Assembly (NCBI GenBank): GCA_019894795.1
Contig: JAGXNV010000005.1
Span: 1-37,206 of the forward strand
Reading direction: 5' to 3'
Length of the DNA stretch: 37,206 bases
DNA from: Candidatus Heimdallarchaeota archaeon
GTDB lineage: Archaea; Asgardarchaeota; Heimdallarchaeia; Heimdallarchaeales; Heimdallarchaeaceae
Below the pieces are notes generated by a model. That model had not been told where the DNA came from and ran no database searches. It saw nothing but the letters and a program-made list of their open reading frames with translations. The translations under genes and the position numbers were made by a program. Every line of letters begins with the position of its first letter. Position 1 is the stretch's first letter. Positions 3,456-31,434 of this stretch are shown piece after piece.

Positions 3456-4835
3456 ATGAACCCTAGAATCTCACCTCACATTTTTCGCGCTTATGACATT
3501 AGAGGATTATACAATAAGGATTTATCGTCTTCAATAATGTTTGAGATAGGTTTAGGTTTTGGATCCTACGTTAAAGAAGTATTGAATGGAACAGAAATAA
3601 CTGTTGGATGTGATATTCGGCAATCAAGCATGCCTTTGGTATATGCATTTATCTCCGGAGTTGCTACAACAGGAATTAACGCAATCTTTGCGGGTACTAC
3701 AGCATTCGGTCAAGCACTGTTTGCAGGATGGTCTCTAAAGAGTACTGCTATTGCTTTCATAACTGCAAGTCATCTCCCTCCAGAATGGAACGGAATCAAA
3801 TTCTATCATGCTGATGGAGTAGGTTTCTCAGAAGGAGAATTAATGATTATTAGAGATCGAACACTAAATAAGGAACATACAAAAATGGGATGGAAGGATG
3901 TTGGAACAGTAATTAATCATGATATTACTCAGGATTATATTAATTTCTTTTTAGAGAAATTCAATTTTACTACAAAACTAAAAGTAGCTCTAGATTGTGG
4001 AGGAGGGAGTACAGCTCTTTCTGCTCCAGAAGTATTTTCAAAACTTGGATTAGAGGTTGTACCTATATATTGTGACCCCGACCCAACGTTCTCAGGTAGA
4101 CCTTCAGATCCAAAGCCCAAGAATTTAACTAAGGTAATTGAAACAGTAAAAGCTCAGGGATGTGATTTTGGTGTAGCTTTTGATGGGGATGGGGACAGAT
4201 CAGTAATAATTGACAATCAGGGGAAAGTTTTGTCTGCAGATGAGACAGGTATTATAATAGGTACTTATGGTCTAAAGCAGAAACATGGAACAATAATTGT
4301 TAATGTAGAATGTTCAAAAGCAGTTAAGGAACAGCTTGAACCTTTAGGATATAACGTAAAACAAATCCCAGTTGGACACACTTATCTGACGATTGAAGCA
4401 AAACAAGAAAAATCGCCTTTAGGTATAGAATCCAGTGGGCACATAATCATTCCAGAATACTTCTTGTTCGATGATGCACTAGTTACACCACTTAAGGTTG
4501 CAGAAATACTTAATAACTTAGAATCGAGACTCTCAGATTTAGTAGAGAAAATTCCAACCTATCCAATGAAGAAAGTAGAAATAGACTGTGAAGATGAACT
4601 AAAATTCGATATAGTTGAAGCATTTAAACTAGAAGCTGAACGTGAATTTGAAGAAATAAATACCATGGATGGCGTGAGAATAGAAACAAAAGAAGGATGG
4701 ATATTAATTCGTCCATCGAATACATCTCCAATAATCCGGATGACAATTGAAGCTGATGATAGAGAAGCGATTGAAGCAATACAGAATAGGTTTGAGGATA
4801 AACTAAAATCACTAATTGATAAAGCATCGAAATAA
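3456..4835 (+). CDS. manB: Phosphomannomutase/phosphoglucomutase (alpha-D-phosphohexomutase)
   Basis: The 459-residue protein has the four-domain phosphohexomutase layout: ending FRAYDIRGLY at the N-terminus, the phosphoserine loop TASHLPPEWNG near residue 105, the metal loop FDGDGDRS near residue 243, the sugar-recognition loop GIESSGH, and the phosphate-binding loop RPSNTSPIIR near the C-terminus. These enzymes interconvert the 1- and 6-phosphates of mannose or glucose, feeding nucleotide-sugar and glycan synthesis. Mannose versus glucose preference cannot be read from the sequence; GEMEA-type and GHxxx loops are ambiguous. The typical family length is matched. The YkgJ-like gene follows after 12 bases, probably co-transcribed. 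Confidence 0.92.
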   Translation: MNPRISPHIFRAYDIRGLYNKDLSSSIMFEIGLGFGSYVKEVLNGTEITVGCDIRQSSMPLVYAFISGVATTGINAIFAGTTAFGQALFAGWSLKSTAIAFITASHLPPEWNGIKFYHADGVGFSEGELMIIRDRTLNKEHTKMGWKDVGTVINHDITQDYINFFLEKFNFTTKLKVALDCGGGSTALSAPEVFSKLGLEVVPIYCDPDPTFSGRPSDPKPKNLTKVIETVKAQGCDFGVAFDGDGDRSVIIDNQGKVLSADETGIIIGTYGLKQKHGTIIVNVECSKAVKEQLEPLGYNVKQIPVGHTYLTIEAKQEKSPLGIESSGHIIIPEYFLFDDALVTPLKVAEILNNLESRLSDLVEKIPTYPMKKVEIDCEDELKFDIVEAFKLEAEREFEEINTMDGVRIETKEGWILIRPSNTSPIIRMTIEADDREAIEAIQNRFEDKLKSLIDKASK

Positions 4836-4847
4836 AAGTGTAGTAAA

Positions 4848-5594
4848 ATGATAACACCGCTCCCAGAATTTTATTGTCCATATTCAGAAAAGTGTTACGA
4901 GTGTTGTCTTGATACAGAGATGACTCTTTCCGAAGAGGATATCACACGGGTAGAACAACTAGGGTACAAAATTGAAGAATTTTTGGACGAGAAAGATGGT
5001 TTTATGGCTTTGAGAAATATCGATAATCATTGCATATTCTTGAAAGATGAATCCTGTTCAATTTACGAAAATCGACCACAAGGGTGTAGATTTTATCCGC
5101 TCATATACGATTTTGATGTAGAGGACATTGTAATCGACAATTTATGTGAACATCAAAGCAATTTTGACTTGGAAATATACAGACCCCTTTTTGATGCAGT
5201 ACAAGTTTTTGTCTATAATCTACTCGGAGAAAGAGAAACAAGAATGAGGAAAACAATGGAAAAAGAGATTAGGGTAGAAGTCAAGGAAACCAAAAATGCG
5301 CTTGAAGATCCGTTAACGGAAGAAATGAGGAAACTTGAAAGAGATAAAGAAAAAATCGAAAGTTTAATAGAACAAGCTATTTTGGATCCTCAAGATGAAC
5401 AGGTGGGAAATTTGGAAGAAGCCTTGAAATCTGAGATGAGGGAAATAGAAGAAGATATTGAAGCATTAGAGAAAGGTATAAAGGAAGATTTAGCTTCTGC
5501 AGAGGAATATATTAAGATTACAGAAGAGAGCATAAATTCAGAGTTAAAGGATTTAGAAAAAAGAAGAAAAAATTTTGAGATAGAGGACAAATAA
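4848..5594 (+). CDS. YkgJ-type cysteine-cluster protein with C-terminal coiled coil
   Basis: The first ~115 residues form a YkgJ-like (CxxCxxCC) metal-binding domain: CPYSEKCYECC near residue 10, then CIFLKDESCSIYENRPQGC and a final C in DNLCEH, the classic cysteine pattern thought to bind zinc or an iron-sulfur cluster. From about residue 125 to the end the protein is Lys/Glu-rich and heptad-like, predicted as a long coiled coil (EEMRKLERDKEKIESL and similar). The tail is an addition to the compact family members of about 110-160 residues. Function of the family is not established. It follows the phosphohexomutase by 12 bases with no strong terminator between them. Confidence 0.75.
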   Translation: MITPLPEFYCPYSEKCYECCLDTEMTLSEEDITRVEQLGYKIEEFLDEKDGFMALRNIDNHCIFLKDESCSIYENRPQGCRFYPLIYDFDVEDIVIDNLCEHQSNFDLEIYRPLFDAVQVFVYNLLGERETRMRKTMEKEIRVEVKETKNALEDPLTEEMRKLERDKEKIESLIEQAILDPQDEQVGNLEEALKSEMREIEEDIEALEKGIKEDLASAEEYIKITEESINSELKDLEKRRKNFEIEDK

Positions 5595-7756: not shown

Positions 7757-8929
7757 CTAATATGTATTTTCTAGATTGTTCTCTACTATATACTTATAGC
7801 ATAAATTAGCCGAACCTTTCATTTTAAGGGCCTCTATAAAGTCATTCATGTCAAATATGGTTTGAGTAATTATAGATTCTTTTGTACTTGGTTTAATATT
7901 TTCAACTTCATCAAAAAACTCTTTCCAAGCGAATTTCGAATTTTTAGCAAAAGTTGTGTGTTCATCTTCATCAGGTTTACTGTAAGTATCAAGTATCCAA
8001 TTTCTCATCTTTGAATACAACTTTGGTTCAGCTACTTCAAGTATCTTGTAAACTAATCTCTGCCAATGAGTACCTATATTTCCCTTTGCTATATTACCAT
8101 GTGGGAATGTTGATCCAATAACATTGACTGGAGTGCCAGTAATGCCATGCTGTGCTATTCTAGTATGATAACCTAATTTTTTAAATTCGTCAACTATTTC
8201 TACTGTTCTTTGCACATTGATCCCCAGTTGAGGTACAACCTTACCACTTGCATCAACATTGACACCGTGAGTAGACCCATTTGCTATTGCAAGATAATCT
8301 AATTTTATACCAGTTTTTTCTAAGGACTGAACATAGTGGGTTGCTTCTTCAACACTAGTATATTCTGTAATCCCTATTTCTCCAACCTCACCTTCTAAAC
8401 CATATGGTTTGTCACCCAGTTTTTCTTTCAAGAAATCAAACAAAATTAAACCTTTTGAAAGAATATCCTTTAGTTGACTATCTACTGTTGTTTCCTCTCT
8501 ATTGAAAAGGAAGGAAGTATCAATTGCATATCCTGAAAAACCTGCCTCAATTCTAGCATTTATCTCATTCATCACATTAGACATTTCCTCAGCAGTACCT
8601 TTTTTTACAGTTAAATGATCAGCATGTAAAGCATAAGCATACCACCGTTCCTTTGTTGCTGCGGATTGACATCTGTCAGCAAATTTCTTAGGAGTATATC
8701 CAGTATAACCACCATTGAGAGACATTTCACTCAATGCAAGTTCAAATATCACAACAGAATTTGCTTGTTTTGCTGCTCTTAATATTCCTCTGATAACTTC
8801 TTCAGTTGCTCTCGGATTTATAGCAGCAATGATTGTTTCTTCTCCTAAAACTCCATTTGCAATAAAATTCATGGGAAGGGGAGCCCTTGGAGTTTCAAAG
8901 AATTCAATAACATCTTGTTCTAGAACCAT
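7757..8929 (-). CDS. Class II (zinc) fructose/ketose-bisphosphate aldolase family protein
   Basis: The protein has the class II aldolase metal and phosphate motifs in order: LHADH near residue 101 (zinc histidine and catalytic Asp), the GFSGYAIDTS strand, EGEVGEIG, IANGSTHG and a final QHGITGTP that replaces the usual HGGSG. Such enzymes cleave or form ketose bisphosphates with zinc. At 390 residues it is longer than most (about 280-360) with an extended C-terminal helical part. I start at ATG 8929, which has AAGGTG six bases before it, rather than at 8962. It leads an operon with the FBPase-like gene, and palindromes lie upstream. Substrate could be fructose or tagatose bisphosphate. Confidence 0.82.
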   Translation of the reverse strand: MVLEQDVIEFFETPRAPLPMNFIANGVLGEETIIAAINPRATEEVIRGILRAAKQANSVVIFELALSEMSLNGGYTGYTPKKFADRCQSAATKERWYAYALHADHLTVKKGTAEEMSNVMNEINARIEAGFSGYAIDTSFLFNREETTVDSQLKDILSKGLILFDFLKEKLGDKPYGLEGEVGEIGITEYTSVEEATHYVQSLEKTGIKLDYLAIANGSTHGVNVDASGKVVPQLGINVQRTVEIVDEFKKLGYHTRIAQHGITGTPVNVIGSTFPHGNIAKGNIGTHWQRLVYKILEVAEPKLYSKMRNWILDTYSKPDEDEHTTFAKNSKFAWKEFFDEVENIKPSTKESIITQTIFDMNDFIEALKMKGSANLCYKYIVENNLENTY

Positions 8930-20497: not shown

Positions 20498-21208
20498 ATG
20501 AGTAAGATGGTAGATGAATTAAGACATTATGCTACTGGTTCAGTTATTCCGCTAGGTGATGGGTTCACCGGAAAATCAGTCTTATCAAGGCTATTAATTG
20601 ACCCTCAATTATCTGATGAAAAACTAAACAATATTCTGCTAAAAACAAGGAAATCATATAATATTGAGATAGAATTCAGCAGTGAAGAAGTTATTGTAGA
20701 TAATTCACCAGTTACATCTACTTTTCAGTTCTATGTGTTTCCAGGGCAAAGGCAAAAAATATCAGACAAAAGTACCACATTTGATGAAATATTAGATGTC
20801 TTCGATTGCTTCCCAGCTTTGTTAAAGGTATCAGTTTTACTATTAATTCATGATGTAACAAAACCACATACTCTCAAATCTTTAGAGATGTGGTTAAGAT
20901 TTGCTTTAGTCAAAAATTGGATTTATGAGGATACTTTGATTGTTTTTCTATCAAATAAAATAGATTTAGAACCTGCAGATGATACAGTCATTGAGCAGGT
21001 AAAAGAAGTAATTTACTCATACATTGAAGATCATGAGTTACAAGTTGGAAAAGATCAAATTAAATCAGTAAAAACTTCTTGTGTAAAAATGGTGGGAATT
21101 CAAGAGCTAAGAGACATGATAATAGAATGGATAGCAAAAAGAGGGATAAAAGGTATTGGGATTAGAGCATTAGAGGAAGAAATAAAGGAAGAAAAGAAAG
21201 AAAATTGA
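20498..21208 (+). CDS. Ras-superfamily small GTPase, MglA-like G3 motif
   Basis: The P-loop GDGFTGKS is at residues 20-27, the G3 region is VFPGQ at 80-84 where Ras proteins have DxxGQ, the G4 NKID is at 153-156 and a TSCVK segment is the likely G5. Loss of the G3 Asp with an x-x-P-G-Q pattern resembles bacterial MglA and other prokaryotic Ras-like proteins (Rup groups), many of which are expanded in Asgard archaea. The C-terminal tail is charged (EEIKEEKKEN) with no prenylation motif, so membrane attachment is not evident. Probable role: a regulatory switch in polarity, trafficking or signalling. No GAP/GEF neighbour is obvious; a decayed paralogue precedes it. Confidence 0.85.
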   Translation: MSKMVDELRHYATGSVIPLGDGFTGKSVLSRLLIDPQLSDEKLNNILLKTRKSYNIEIEFSSEEVIVDNSPVTSTFQFYVFPGQRQKISDKSTTFDEILDVFDCFPALLKVSVLLLIHDVTKPHTLKSLEMWLRFALVKNWIYEDTLIVFLSNKIDLEPADDTVIEQVKEVIYSYIEDHELQVGKDQIKSVKTSCVKMVGIQELRDMIIEWIAKRGIKGIGIRALEEEIKEEKKEN

Positions 21209-27851: not shown

Positions 27852-28736
27852 ATGTCCAACGAAGAGATACAAAAAATAGCAAAATTATTAGAAAATGAAA
27901 ATCCGGCAATGAGACAATTAGCTTTAGAACAATTATCGCCCCATAAACAAAATCACACAGCAACTAACATGATAATTAGAACTCTACAAGATAAAGATAA
28001 AGGAGTTAGGACTTTCGCAGCGGAGATATTGGGGGATGTTGATGATAGACATGCCTTGATTGCTTTAACTCATACTTTGGAAGATGGGGAATGGGAAGTA
28101 AGAAATGCAGCTATAGAGTCTTTTGGAAAGCACAAGAATCCTGAAACAGTGCCTTTCTTAATTCAATCATTAAGAGATGAACACCAACAAGTTAGATATT
28201 CCGCTACAAAAGAACTGAAACATTTTGATAGTCCCTCCATTATTGAACCTCTCTTTGAGATGCTAAAAGATGATTCTGATTCAGTACGTGAGGAAGCCAG
28301 ATCAACATTGCTTAATTTTCAAGTAAAGGTTCCTGCTTCATTAATTGCTAAATTCATACTAGATTTAAACAAAAACGTAAAAGAAGTTGCTGTTGAATTC
28401 TTAACTACACGAGTTGAAGGGAACCCAATTCCACATCTTGAAAGAGCTTTGGACGATAAAGATTGGGAGATACGATTACTAGCGCTCACTGAGATAGGGA
28501 AAATAATCAAGAAAGGAGAGATACAAGATCCAAAAATCTTGAAAATAATTCTTAAAGCTCTAGATGATGAACATTCCAGAGTAAGATTTGAAGGTTTAAG
28601 CAATCTCAAGGAATTAAATAATCCTTCTACAATAGACAAACTTGGTGAAATTGCAAGAAACGATGAAGATTCCAATAATCGGCTTATGGCTACAGAGACT
28701 ATGACTTTCATCCGGCGATCTTTGAGATTGGAATAA
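27852..28736 (+). CDS. HEAT-repeat protein
   Basis: The 294-residue protein is almost entirely helical repeats of about 30-33 residues, recognisable by the D-x-x-VR motif: DKDKGVRTFAAEILG, DGEWEVRNAAIESFG, DEHQQVRYSATKELK, DDSDSVREEARSTL, LNKNVKEVAVEFL, DKDWEIRLLALTEIG, DEHSRVRFEGLSNL and a last DEDSNNRLMATETM, i.e. about eight repeats. Such scaffolds bind proteins or nucleic acids. I start at ATG 27852; GTG 27843 would add three residues. It stands first in a run of plus-strand genes for small zinc proteins and a TPR protein, which may be its partners. Confidence 0.85.
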   Translation: MSNEEIQKIAKLLENENPAMRQLALEQLSPHKQNHTATNMIIRTLQDKDKGVRTFAAEILGDVDDRHALIALTHTLEDGEWEVRNAAIESFGKHKNPETVPFLIQSLRDEHQQVRYSATKELKHFDSPSIIEPLFEMLKDDSDSVREEARSTLLNFQVKVPASLIAKFILDLNKNVKEVAVEFLTTRVEGNPIPHLERALDDKDWEIRLLALTEIGKIIKKGEIQDPKILKIILKALDDEHSRVRFEGLSNLKELNNPSTIDKLGEIARNDEDSNNRLMATETMTFIRRSLRLE

Positions 28737-28816
28737 ACTTGTAACAAGACTAATAATAAATTTATTCACTCTTTTCTTCCCCTAAAATTTTTATAGTCGG
28801 GCTATCAGCGAATCTT

Positions 28817-29065
28817 ATGAAGCCCCCAATGTGCGCATTATGCTATAAAGAATTTCTAGATACTGATGAAGGCGGTTTGGTTTACTTTGAAAAACGAAGT
28901 AGCGATGAAAGATGGATTTCTGTTATGAAAGAGGAAGGTATGCAAGGTCATCCACCCTTTGCAGAATGGTTCTGTGCGGAACACTATGAGGCAGCTATAG
29001 AGCTTAAGAAACTAACCATTGATGAAGCAATGAACATTCTAAAAGAGAAATATCCAATGAAGTGA
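28817..29065 (+). CDS. Small C2-CH zinc-binding protein, copy 1
   Basis: An 82-residue protein with KPPMCALCYKEF at its start and HPPFAEWFCAEHYEAA near residue 50; the CxxC and FCxxH pairs form a probable zinc site. A conserved EGGLVYFEKR stretch sits between them, followed by a LTIDEAMNIL helix. It is clearly paralogous to the next gene, which starts four bases after its stop. Leaderless expression is suggested by TTTTTATAG at about 28787-28795, 25-30 bases before the ATG. I do not recognise the family. Confidence 0.75.
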   Translation: MKPPMCALCYKEFLDTDEGGLVYFEKRSSDERWISVMKEEGMQGHPPFAEWFCAEHYEAAIELKKLTIDEAMNILKEKYPMK

Positions 29066-29069
29066 TACT

Positions 29070-29336
29070 ATGAAACCACCAGTATGCGTAATTTGCTCTA
29101 GGAGATTCAGCCCTCAAGAGGAAGGAGGTGTTGTTAATTTTGCTAAACGAAAAGGTGACATTGAATGGGAAAAGAAGGATATAGTCGAACACCCTCCTTA
29201 TGCTGATTGGTTCTGTGGAAGGCACTTTTCTTATGCGGAAAATCTATCAGGACTTACAATTAATAAAGCGATGGAAAAAATAATAGAAAGATTTGCATCA
29301 GACTACAAACAGTTTGAAGATGCTGACAGTTATTAG
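29070..29336 (+). CDS. Small C2-CH zinc-binding protein, copy 2
   Basis: An 88-residue paralogue of the preceding protein with the same plan: KPPVCVICSRRF, EGGVVNFAKR, HPPYADWFCGRHF and LTINKAMEKI. The spacing between the middle and the FCxxH motif is shorter by about five residues and the C-terminus is extended with an acidic DADSY end. Start spacing of four bases after the stop of copy 1 shows co-transcription. Roughly half the positions match by eye, so the tandem duplication is not recent and the copies have probably specialised or form a heterodimer. Confidence 0.75.
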   Translation: MKPPVCVICSRRFSPQEEGGVVNFAKRKGDIEWEKKDIVEHPPYADWFCGRHFSYAENLSGLTINKAMEKIIERFASDYKQFEDADSY

Positions 29337-29352
29337 AAGAGGAGAAAACCAA

Positions 29353-29375
29353 ATCTCGAAATATTATTTTGAGAT
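29353..29375 (+). terminator. Possible hairpin after the twin zinc-protein genes
   Basis: ATCTCGAAAT and ATTTTGAGAT form a 10-bp stem (one G-U pair) with a three-base loop 17 bases after the stop of the second zinc-protein gene. A clean T-run is missing, so it may be a transcript-end structure rather than a true terminator. Confidence 0.35.
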
Positions 29376-29490
29376 AAGATTAGTGTATTCCAGTTCAAGG
29401 AATTTTGACCGATTAAACATCTCCTTTCTTTACCACTGTCGCAAGTTTATTATTGTACTGTAACATATTTTAAAAGTGAGGTTTTTGAAT

Positions 29491-31434
29491 TTGGACAATT
29501 CACCTTTACAGATTTTCACTCAAGTAAGGACTTACATTGATGAAGGCAAGTACGATGAAGCTTTACAAGAATTAGATAGATTTGAGAAGAGAGGAGAGTT
29601 AAACTCAAAAGCAAATATCAATTTCAAGATTCTTAAAAGTGAGGTTTTCAACAGAATTGGTAAATATGAAAATGCGTTAAGCTTAGCAGAAGAAGCTCTT
29701 GAGAAGTGTAAGGATCCAGAAGATTGCTTAGCTATATTAGATGCTACCAATGAGACAGCTTATTCGTTTTGGAGACAAGGGAAGTTAGAAGAGGCTACCA
29801 AAGCAATTCTGAAAAACGAACCAATTATCACTAAACTGAAGAATCAAAAAGTAGAGGGTGTCAAGAACAGAGAAGCTAGAACACATAGGATCAAGGGAGT
29901 TCTATATCATACAGGAGGGGATTTAGCTGAAGCAGAAAAAAGTTACAGAAAAAGTCTTTCTATATGGGAGGAAATTGGAAATAAACAAGAAATTAGTTCA
30001 GTTTTAAACAATCTTGGTGTTCTCAATCGTACAAAGGGAGAGCTTCACAAAGCCTTAGGATATTATCAAAAAAGCTTATTTCTTTACAAAGAAGTTGGTA
30101 ACAAAGACGATATTGCTACATCTTTAAACAATATAGGTAATATATTTCGATATCAAGGTGAGTTAGAGGAAGCTTTACATTATTATAAACAAAGTTTATC
30201 CACCTGGGAGGAAATAGGAAATAGTCAGTTTGTGAGTTTAGCTTTCTACAATATTGGGGAAGTGTATCAACAGAAGGGAAAATTCGAAACATCAATCCGT
30301 TATTTCAAGCAGAGCTTATCATTAAGAGAAGAAATAGGAAATAAACAAGATATTGCTCTAACACTATTTTATCTTATTTCAGCATCTTTAGATTCAAACA
30401 ATATGAAAAGTGCGCAAAGATTTTTAGATAGACTAAGAGATGTGGAATCCTTTGAAGACAATGCTTTCATTAGTCAATTGAGAAAAATATCAGAAGCAGC
30501 GCTTCTAAAAACGAGTCCTCGGATGAAACACAGAGTAGAAGCTCAAGAACTTCTACAGAAAGTACTAGAAGAGGAAATCATTGATCATTCGCTTACTGTC
30601 ATGGCCTTAATTGGCCTTAGCGAATTATTGCTAGAAGAATTAAAAATATCAGGTGATCAGGAAATATTCACTTTATTAAGAGCAATGGTGAGTAGCCTTT
30701 TTGATATCGCAAAACATCAGGGATCACATAATCTTCTTGCAAAGACTTATTGGTTACAAAGTCAAATAGCTTTAGTAGATTTAGACTTGTTAAAAGCTCG
30801 AGATTTGCTGAACAAAGCTCAAGAAATTGCTGAGAGTAAGGGATTACGAAAACTAGCTATCAGTATTTCTAGCGACCATGATTTGCTGTTAAATCAATTG
30901 AGTGACTGGGAAAACATGGTTAATAAAAAAGCTAGTTTAAAAGAAAGACTGGAATTTGCACAACTTGGAGGACTTGTTGTAAAACTAATCAAAAACGGTG
31001 AAATAACATCACCAGAAATTGTGAATGAAGAACCTGTTCTCCTAATTATCTTATCTGAAAACGGAATACCACTTTACACGAAAAACTATGTCGAGGGAAG
31101 TCAATTAGATGGTGTTTTGGTAGGAGGGTTTCTCTCTGCAATAATCAAATTTAGTCAAGAGACTTTTGCAAGCGAGGGATCAATTGAGAGGATAAAACAT
31201 CAAGAGTACACCCTACTACTAAGAGCAAAGAAACCTTTCCTTTTTAGTTATATAATAAAGGGTCAAACTTATTCGGCAATGCAGAAACTGGAAGCTTTAA
31301 CGAGAATAATAGGAACATCAACATCCGTATGGGATGACCTATTGAGAGCAGTAAAAACTTCAAAGACAATTTCTGCAGGTTCAAAGAACATGATTGATGA
31401 ATTAGCAAAAATGGTTTTTCCAAGCAAGGCGTAA
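29491..31434 (+). CDS. TPR protein with a longin/roadblock-like C-terminal domain
   Basis: The N-terminal ~330 residues are tetratricopeptide repeats, e.g. GDLAEAEKSYRKSLSIWEEIGN, GELHKALGYYQKSLFLYKEVGN, GELEEALHYYKQSLSTWEEIGN and GKFETSIRYFKQSLSLREEIGN, of the 40-residue type. After a further helical region, residues ~510-615 switch to alternating beta strands and helices: VLLIILSENGIPLYTKNY, GGFLSAIIKFSQETF, YTLLLRAKKPFLFSYIIKG. This pattern resembles the profilin-like longin/roadblock superfamily used by GTPase regulators, which Asgard archaea have in number; that assignment is by eye only. TTG 29491 has GAGG suitably upstream and is preferred over GTG 29476. Confidence 0.78.
   Translation: MDNSPLQIFTQVRTYIDEGKYDEALQELDRFEKRGELNSKANINFKILKSEVFNRIGKYENALSLAEEALEKCKDPEDCLAILDATNETAYSFWRQGKLEEATKAILKNEPIITKLKNQKVEGVKNREARTHRIKGVLYHTGGDLAEAEKSYRKSLSIWEEIGNKQEISSVLNNLGVLNRTKGELHKALGYYQKSLFLYKEVGNKDDIATSLNNIGNIFRYQGELEEALHYYKQSLSTWEEIGNSQFVSLAFYNIGEVYQQKGKFETSIRYFKQSLSLREEIGNKQDIALTLFYLISASLDSNNMKSAQRFLDRLRDVESFEDNAFISQLRKISEAALLKTSPRMKHRVEAQELLQKVLEEEIIDHSLTVMALIGLSELLLEELKISGDQEIFTLLRAMVSSLFDIAKHQGSHNLLAKTYWLQSQIALVDLDLLKARDLLNKAQEIAESKGLRKLAISISSDHDLLLNQLSDWENMVNKKASLKERLEFAQLGGLVVKLIKNGEITSPEIVNEEPVLLIILSENGIPLYTKNYVEGSQLDGVLVGGFLSAIIKFSQETFASEGSIERIKHQEYTLLLRAKKPFLFSYIIKGQTYSAMQKLEALTRIIGTSTSVWDDLLRAVKTSKTISAGSKNMIDELAKMVFPSKA

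Follow-up and report, generated by a model that had tools for sequence, protein, structure and literature searches.

Proteins with a longin domain are found in multiple copies in Asgard archaea (PMC10933270; PMC10936438), where they may activate small GTPases and can be combined with other domains, including TPR (PMC10936438). TPR is not mentioned for these proteins in PMC10933270, which remarks that small GTPase genes of MK-D1 generally do not lie in operons with longin genes and that it is difficult to infer from the arrangement of a genome which regulator belongs to which GTPase. Two further types of described protein bear on the locus studied here, the archaeal one-domain zinc finger micro-proteins, such as those of Haloferax (PMC6562870), and the THAP domain (PF05485), a C2-CH zinc finger with a beta-alpha-beta order of elements. 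Here, we analysed a stretch of 37,206 nucleotides (the window) from an archaeon that a sequence-only reading had correctly placed within the Asgard archaea: among named genomes it is closest to Candidatus Heimdallarchaeota MAGs, and its genus includes one of these, AB_125.

Four genes lie in a row on the plus strand of the window, as the sequence-only reading had described. The first (27852-28736) encodes a HEAT-repeat protein of 294 aa, followed by two small putative zinc proteins, Z1 (28817-29065; 82 aa, with a C2-CH set of C6, C9, C53 and H56) and its tandem paralogue Z2 (29070-29336; 88 aa), and by a TPR protein (29476-31434; 652 aa from a GTG start) with a C-terminal longin domain. The genes are separated by 80, 4 and 139 bases; the first two gaps had been given correctly, and the last had been put at about 154. 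Pfam bore out the domain calls for the two large proteins (HEAT_2, E 4e-43; TPR_12, E 2e-48). Each genome of the genus has one HEAT orthologue. The window protein has the repeat profile of HEAT_2 proteins (PF13646) and otherwise nothing specific, and it reaches the cut-off of no named NCBIfam subfamily; it is a scaffold protein of a generic type. We consider it probable, at about three chances in four, that the row comprises three separate, adjacent transcription units in a single Heimdallarchaeota genus and does not encode a four-part complex.

When gene order was compared across the genus, HEAT and Z1 were adjacent in 18 of 19 cases (20 loci), with an intervening ORF in the exception. However, unrelated flanks were conserved equally well: the exonuclease and MFS genes, which lie on the strand opposite to HEAT, were adjacent in 16/16 loci, and MFS and HEAT in 19/19. 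Adjacency of zinc and TPR genes was seen in just 9 of 20 loci. The order was kept within the genus, and the complete four-gene order did not reach beyond the clade of the window (window, G015, G022, G023, G027 and G028). Within this clade, two genomes have a broken TPR gene (loci L074 and L075), with a split frame in G027 and a truncated one in G028, through decay or assembly error. Counting these two copies, a TPR orthologue is present in 11 of the 21 genus genomes; the other ten have only paralogues of 30-40% identity elsewhere. Absences of TPR and of Z2 are independent of each other. At the TPR position, the AB_125-type clade carries genes for a ThiS-like protein and an FG-GAP propeller after its zinc genes. 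One such locus (L083, 3365-7924) encodes the ThiS-like protein, a 602-aa FG-GAP propeller with weak BBS2/PTHB1 matches, a ferredoxin-type protein and an aldehyde ferredoxin oxidoreductase.

In the sister genome G008, a single contig, 1.53 Mb separate HEAT (at 2,318,534) from the zinc gene (at 788,690). In another genome (G007, ∼89% complete), HEAT is kept and no zinc gene was found; HEAT and an apparent TPR gene, whose start lies at the contig end, keep their order ∼2.8 kb apart with other ORFs between them. A sister-genus locus (L200) has an unrelated small Cys-rich protein (FFGKCGQCGRPIEES...; 8594-8857) between HEAT and TPR. Across 20 genera the zinc gene had no recurring neighbour. In the Lokiarchaeal genome G144, the zinc gene lies ∼3 kb away from a TPR-longin gene, and the GTPase gene paired with the latter lies between the two; no other such case was seen. 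In one Lokiarchaeal genome (locus L035), a free-standing longin-like protein (4528-4935; Fuz_longin_1, E 2e-4) is encoded just upstream of the zinc gene. Among 228 Asgard genomes, many of them incomplete, 61 had both a zinc gene and a TPR-family match, 17 the zinc gene only and 77 a TPR-family match only. Thus, the genes neither keep their order beyond the local background and the genus nor share a pattern of presence and absence across these genomes, and the data show no persistent link between the four.

Promoter-like elements also bear on the row. A TATA-like box (CCCCTAAAATTTTTATA; 28779-28795, plus strand) precedes Z1 in the window, with 21 nt between its end and the start codon. Of 21 genus genomes, 20 carry such a box, ending 20-24 nt ahead of Z1, whereas shuffled sequences would give 0.72. 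The box was detected upstream of HEAT in 1/20 genomes, and upstream of Z2 (0/12) and TPR (0/9) in none. Having no box of its own, Z2 would be expected on the transcript of Z1. In one locus (L118, from 8256), the Z2 reading frame is broken by a stop after 18 residues, again through decay or assembly error. A conserved block upstream of the TPR gene (TTACCACTGT..TTTATTATT; 29430-29455, plus strand), judged by eye, is a candidate for a separate promoter. These sequence elements point to separate transcription units for HEAT, Z1-Z2 and TPR. Separate promoters are compatible with a shared complex. Together with the synteny controls and the phyletic pattern, the promoter-like boxes speak against a four-gene operon.

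By sequence, the C terminus of the TPR protein resembled longin only weakly (Fuz_longin_1, E 0.069). Residues 501-652 were modelled with AlphaFold2 from a 12-row alignment (pLDDT 77); the model showed the order bb-a-bbb-a-a, which is the longin topology, and Foldseek matched it to VAMP7, Sec22b and sedlin (E 4e-5 to 1e-3, TM up to 0.68), with sigma-adaptin and zeta-COP also among the matches. Model, Foldseek and alignment place the domain at residues ∼519-652 (31030-31431, plus strand). Of the longin/roadblock-like domain proposed earlier, longin is thereby retained and roadblock, which the modelled topology does not fit, is dropped. The protein thus resembles described Asgard longin proteins in its fold, in its combination with TPR and in its copy number: at E 1e-20, 138 of 228 Asgard genomes have family matches, often several each.

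In 39 surveyed loci (356 kb), the full set of Ras-type motifs was found in five genes only, each directly downstream of a TPR-longin gene. The resulting five pairs with a Rab-like GTPase come from four Lokiarchaeal genomes (L216, 6327-8905; L220, 56-2030 and 4340-7028; L235, 4220-6862; L241, 3043-5688), with both genes on the same strand, gaps of 93-184 bases and a GTPase switch II region of FWDI-[AS]-GQ..FNFL. L219, L238 and L241 also showed similarity to this GTPase, weaker or partial and in positions other than directly downstream. The pairs depart from the remark made for MK-D1 (PMC10933270), and as gene neighbourhoods, in a class other than that of the window, they support a small-GTPase role for the TPR-longin protein alone. 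The GTPase-signalling link suggested by the sequence-only reading is accordingly supported for this protein and not for the set of four. The window also encodes an atypical small GTPase (20498-21208; P-loop GDGFTGKS, NKID; Ras E 2.6e-4) ∼6.6 kb upstream of HEAT, which is present in several loci of the genus.

Z1 and Z2 are paralogues with 41% identity (E 1e-23). A profile of both found relatives in 78 of the 228 Asgard genomes, usually one copy per genome, the named ones including Heimdall-, Loki-, Sigyn-, Jord-, Borr-, Frey- and Hermodarchaeal MAGs. Since conservation of the family extends through an archaeal phylum, coding of Z1 and Z2 is beyond chance. Among these relatives, intact tandem pairs were seen only in the genus of the window, where Z2 sits on longer stem branches than Z1. 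The putative zinc ligands are near-invariant in 58 relatives (C6 98%; C9, C53 and H56 100%), as are P3, P4, G19, G20, F24, D30, W33, H45, P46, P47, W51, F52, A60 and A71, giving the motif PP-x-C-x2-C ... GG-L-x-F ... GHPP-x-A-x-W-F-C-x2-H. Identity and ligands uphold the earlier description of tandem C2-CH mini-proteins. So does the search of Pfam and NCBIfam, in which neither protein matched a family or model, for the claim that they lie outside known families; by sequence, they are an undescribed family in the libraries searched. The literature yielded no usable AsCOG description of the family. The Haloferax micro-proteins (PMC6562870), compared here by their description only, are likewise small and single-domain; Z1 and Z2 form a sequence family of their own by motif.

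Outside the archaea, relatives were sparse, with 4 of 379 Myxococcota genomes searched. One bacterial match is a Kofleriaceae MAG, for which contamination is unlikely given the even GC of the contig, the bacterial-looking flanking ORFs and the three more Myxococcota with relatives. No relative was found in plasmids or viral contigs, which argues against spread by either. One Myxococcota relative (L190) has lost the ligands and retained GGLVYF and GHPPNAVW. This points to a structural role for zinc, and to the remaining motif residues as the working face.

The confident Z1 model (pLDDT 91.6) consists of a strand (19-23), a helix (28-40) and a second strand (49-53) followed by helices. C6 and C9 lie near the start, and C53 and H56 at the end of strand 2 and the start of the next helix; on this model, we read the ligand order as that of a treble-clef-like finger. 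Foldseek gave no significant match of the model in the PDB. A C2H2 (zif) finger does not fit, since 43 residues separate the Cys pair from the Cys-His pair, two Cys and two His do not fall within ∼25 residues, and the matches cover the CxxC end only.

The zinc proteins might instead be DNA- or RNA-binding fingers acting as small regulators, possibly distant relatives of THAP. Their spacing (C6-x2-C9-x43-C53-x2-H56) satisfies the THAP signature C-x2-4-C-x35-53-C-x2-H, and the beta-alpha-beta order is common to both. Weak Pfam THAP matches appeared in 3-4 family members (best E 0.018), three THAP chains were among 55 weak Foldseek matches, and hhalign, using a THAP1 sequence checked against PDB entry 2jtg, scored 21.0, where shuffling gave at most 19.1. 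However, the hhalign probability was just 9%, the Foldseek matches had E >1 and TM ∼0.3, and the C-terminal AVPTxF motif of THAP is absent from the family alignment; neither profile nor structure comparison with THAP reached significance. Moreover, the acidity of Z1 (pI 5.0, charge -5.3) and the median pI of 7.3 in the family make plain nucleic-acid binding less likely. Membership in THAP is thus not supported, as the signature fits and the significance does not, and we treat the weak resemblance as a lead only. A nucleic-acid-binding role is quite unlikely on this evidence, and we consider it highly improbable that these proteins of Asgard archaea and a few Myxococcota are prokaryotic relatives of the THAP finger of animals.

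A more general cellular function for the zinc proteins, for example in ribosome or enzyme maturation and independent of signalling, would agree with the usual single copy per genome, the strong conservation and the lack of a preferred neighbour. Yet the protein was found in only 78 of 228 Asgard genomes and not in many Asgard families, unlike a housekeeping gene, and it is sparse in bacteria, and we regard this function as unlikely. The sequence-only reading had proposed an undescribed Asgard complex, and the four genes could form a functional module within the genus, in which HEAT and TPR-longin scaffolds and Z1/Z2 adaptors regulate a small GTPase or trafficking. The HEAT-Z1 adjacency, the longin fold, the GTPases beside TPR-longin relatives in Lokiarchaea and the atypical small GTPase of the window all favour it. 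In every genus locus with both genes, HEAT and Z1 are adjacent or nearly so, and this persists at protein identities down to ∼64%, which counts against fully separate units and may reflect a weak functional link between these two. The HEAT-TPR order kept in G007 and the proximity of zinc and TPR-longin genes in G144 likewise count against the three-unit reading. Against the module stand the equal conservation of unrelated flanks, the lack of a TPR orthologue in 10 of 21 genomes, independently of Z2, the separation of HEAT and zinc genes in G008, the promoter-like box of Z1's own and the 17 genomes with a zinc protein and no TPR-family match. We therefore find a four-gene module or complex very unlikely and favour three neighbouring units.

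Under the three-unit reading, the first unit would provide a HEAT-repeat scaffold protein, and the second the Z1-Z2 pair, transcribed from what is probably its own promoter. Z1 and Z2 would each be a beta-alpha-beta finger held together by zinc with a structural, non-catalytic role, and the conserved face (GG-L-x-F and GHPP-x-A-x-W) may grip a partner protein. In the third unit, the longin domain would most likely serve as a platform for a Rab-like small GTPase, with the TPRs presumably holding another partner.

Overall, the supposed four-gene complex dissolves, and effort on a false lead is spared. What emerges in its place is an undescribed, strongly conserved family of small zinc proteins in a third of Asgard genomes; if its relation to THAP were true, the THAP domain would have deep roots in archaea or bacteria. 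For Lokiarchaea, the pairing of TPR-longin and Rab-like GTPase genes names a specific candidate match between a regulator and its GTPase.
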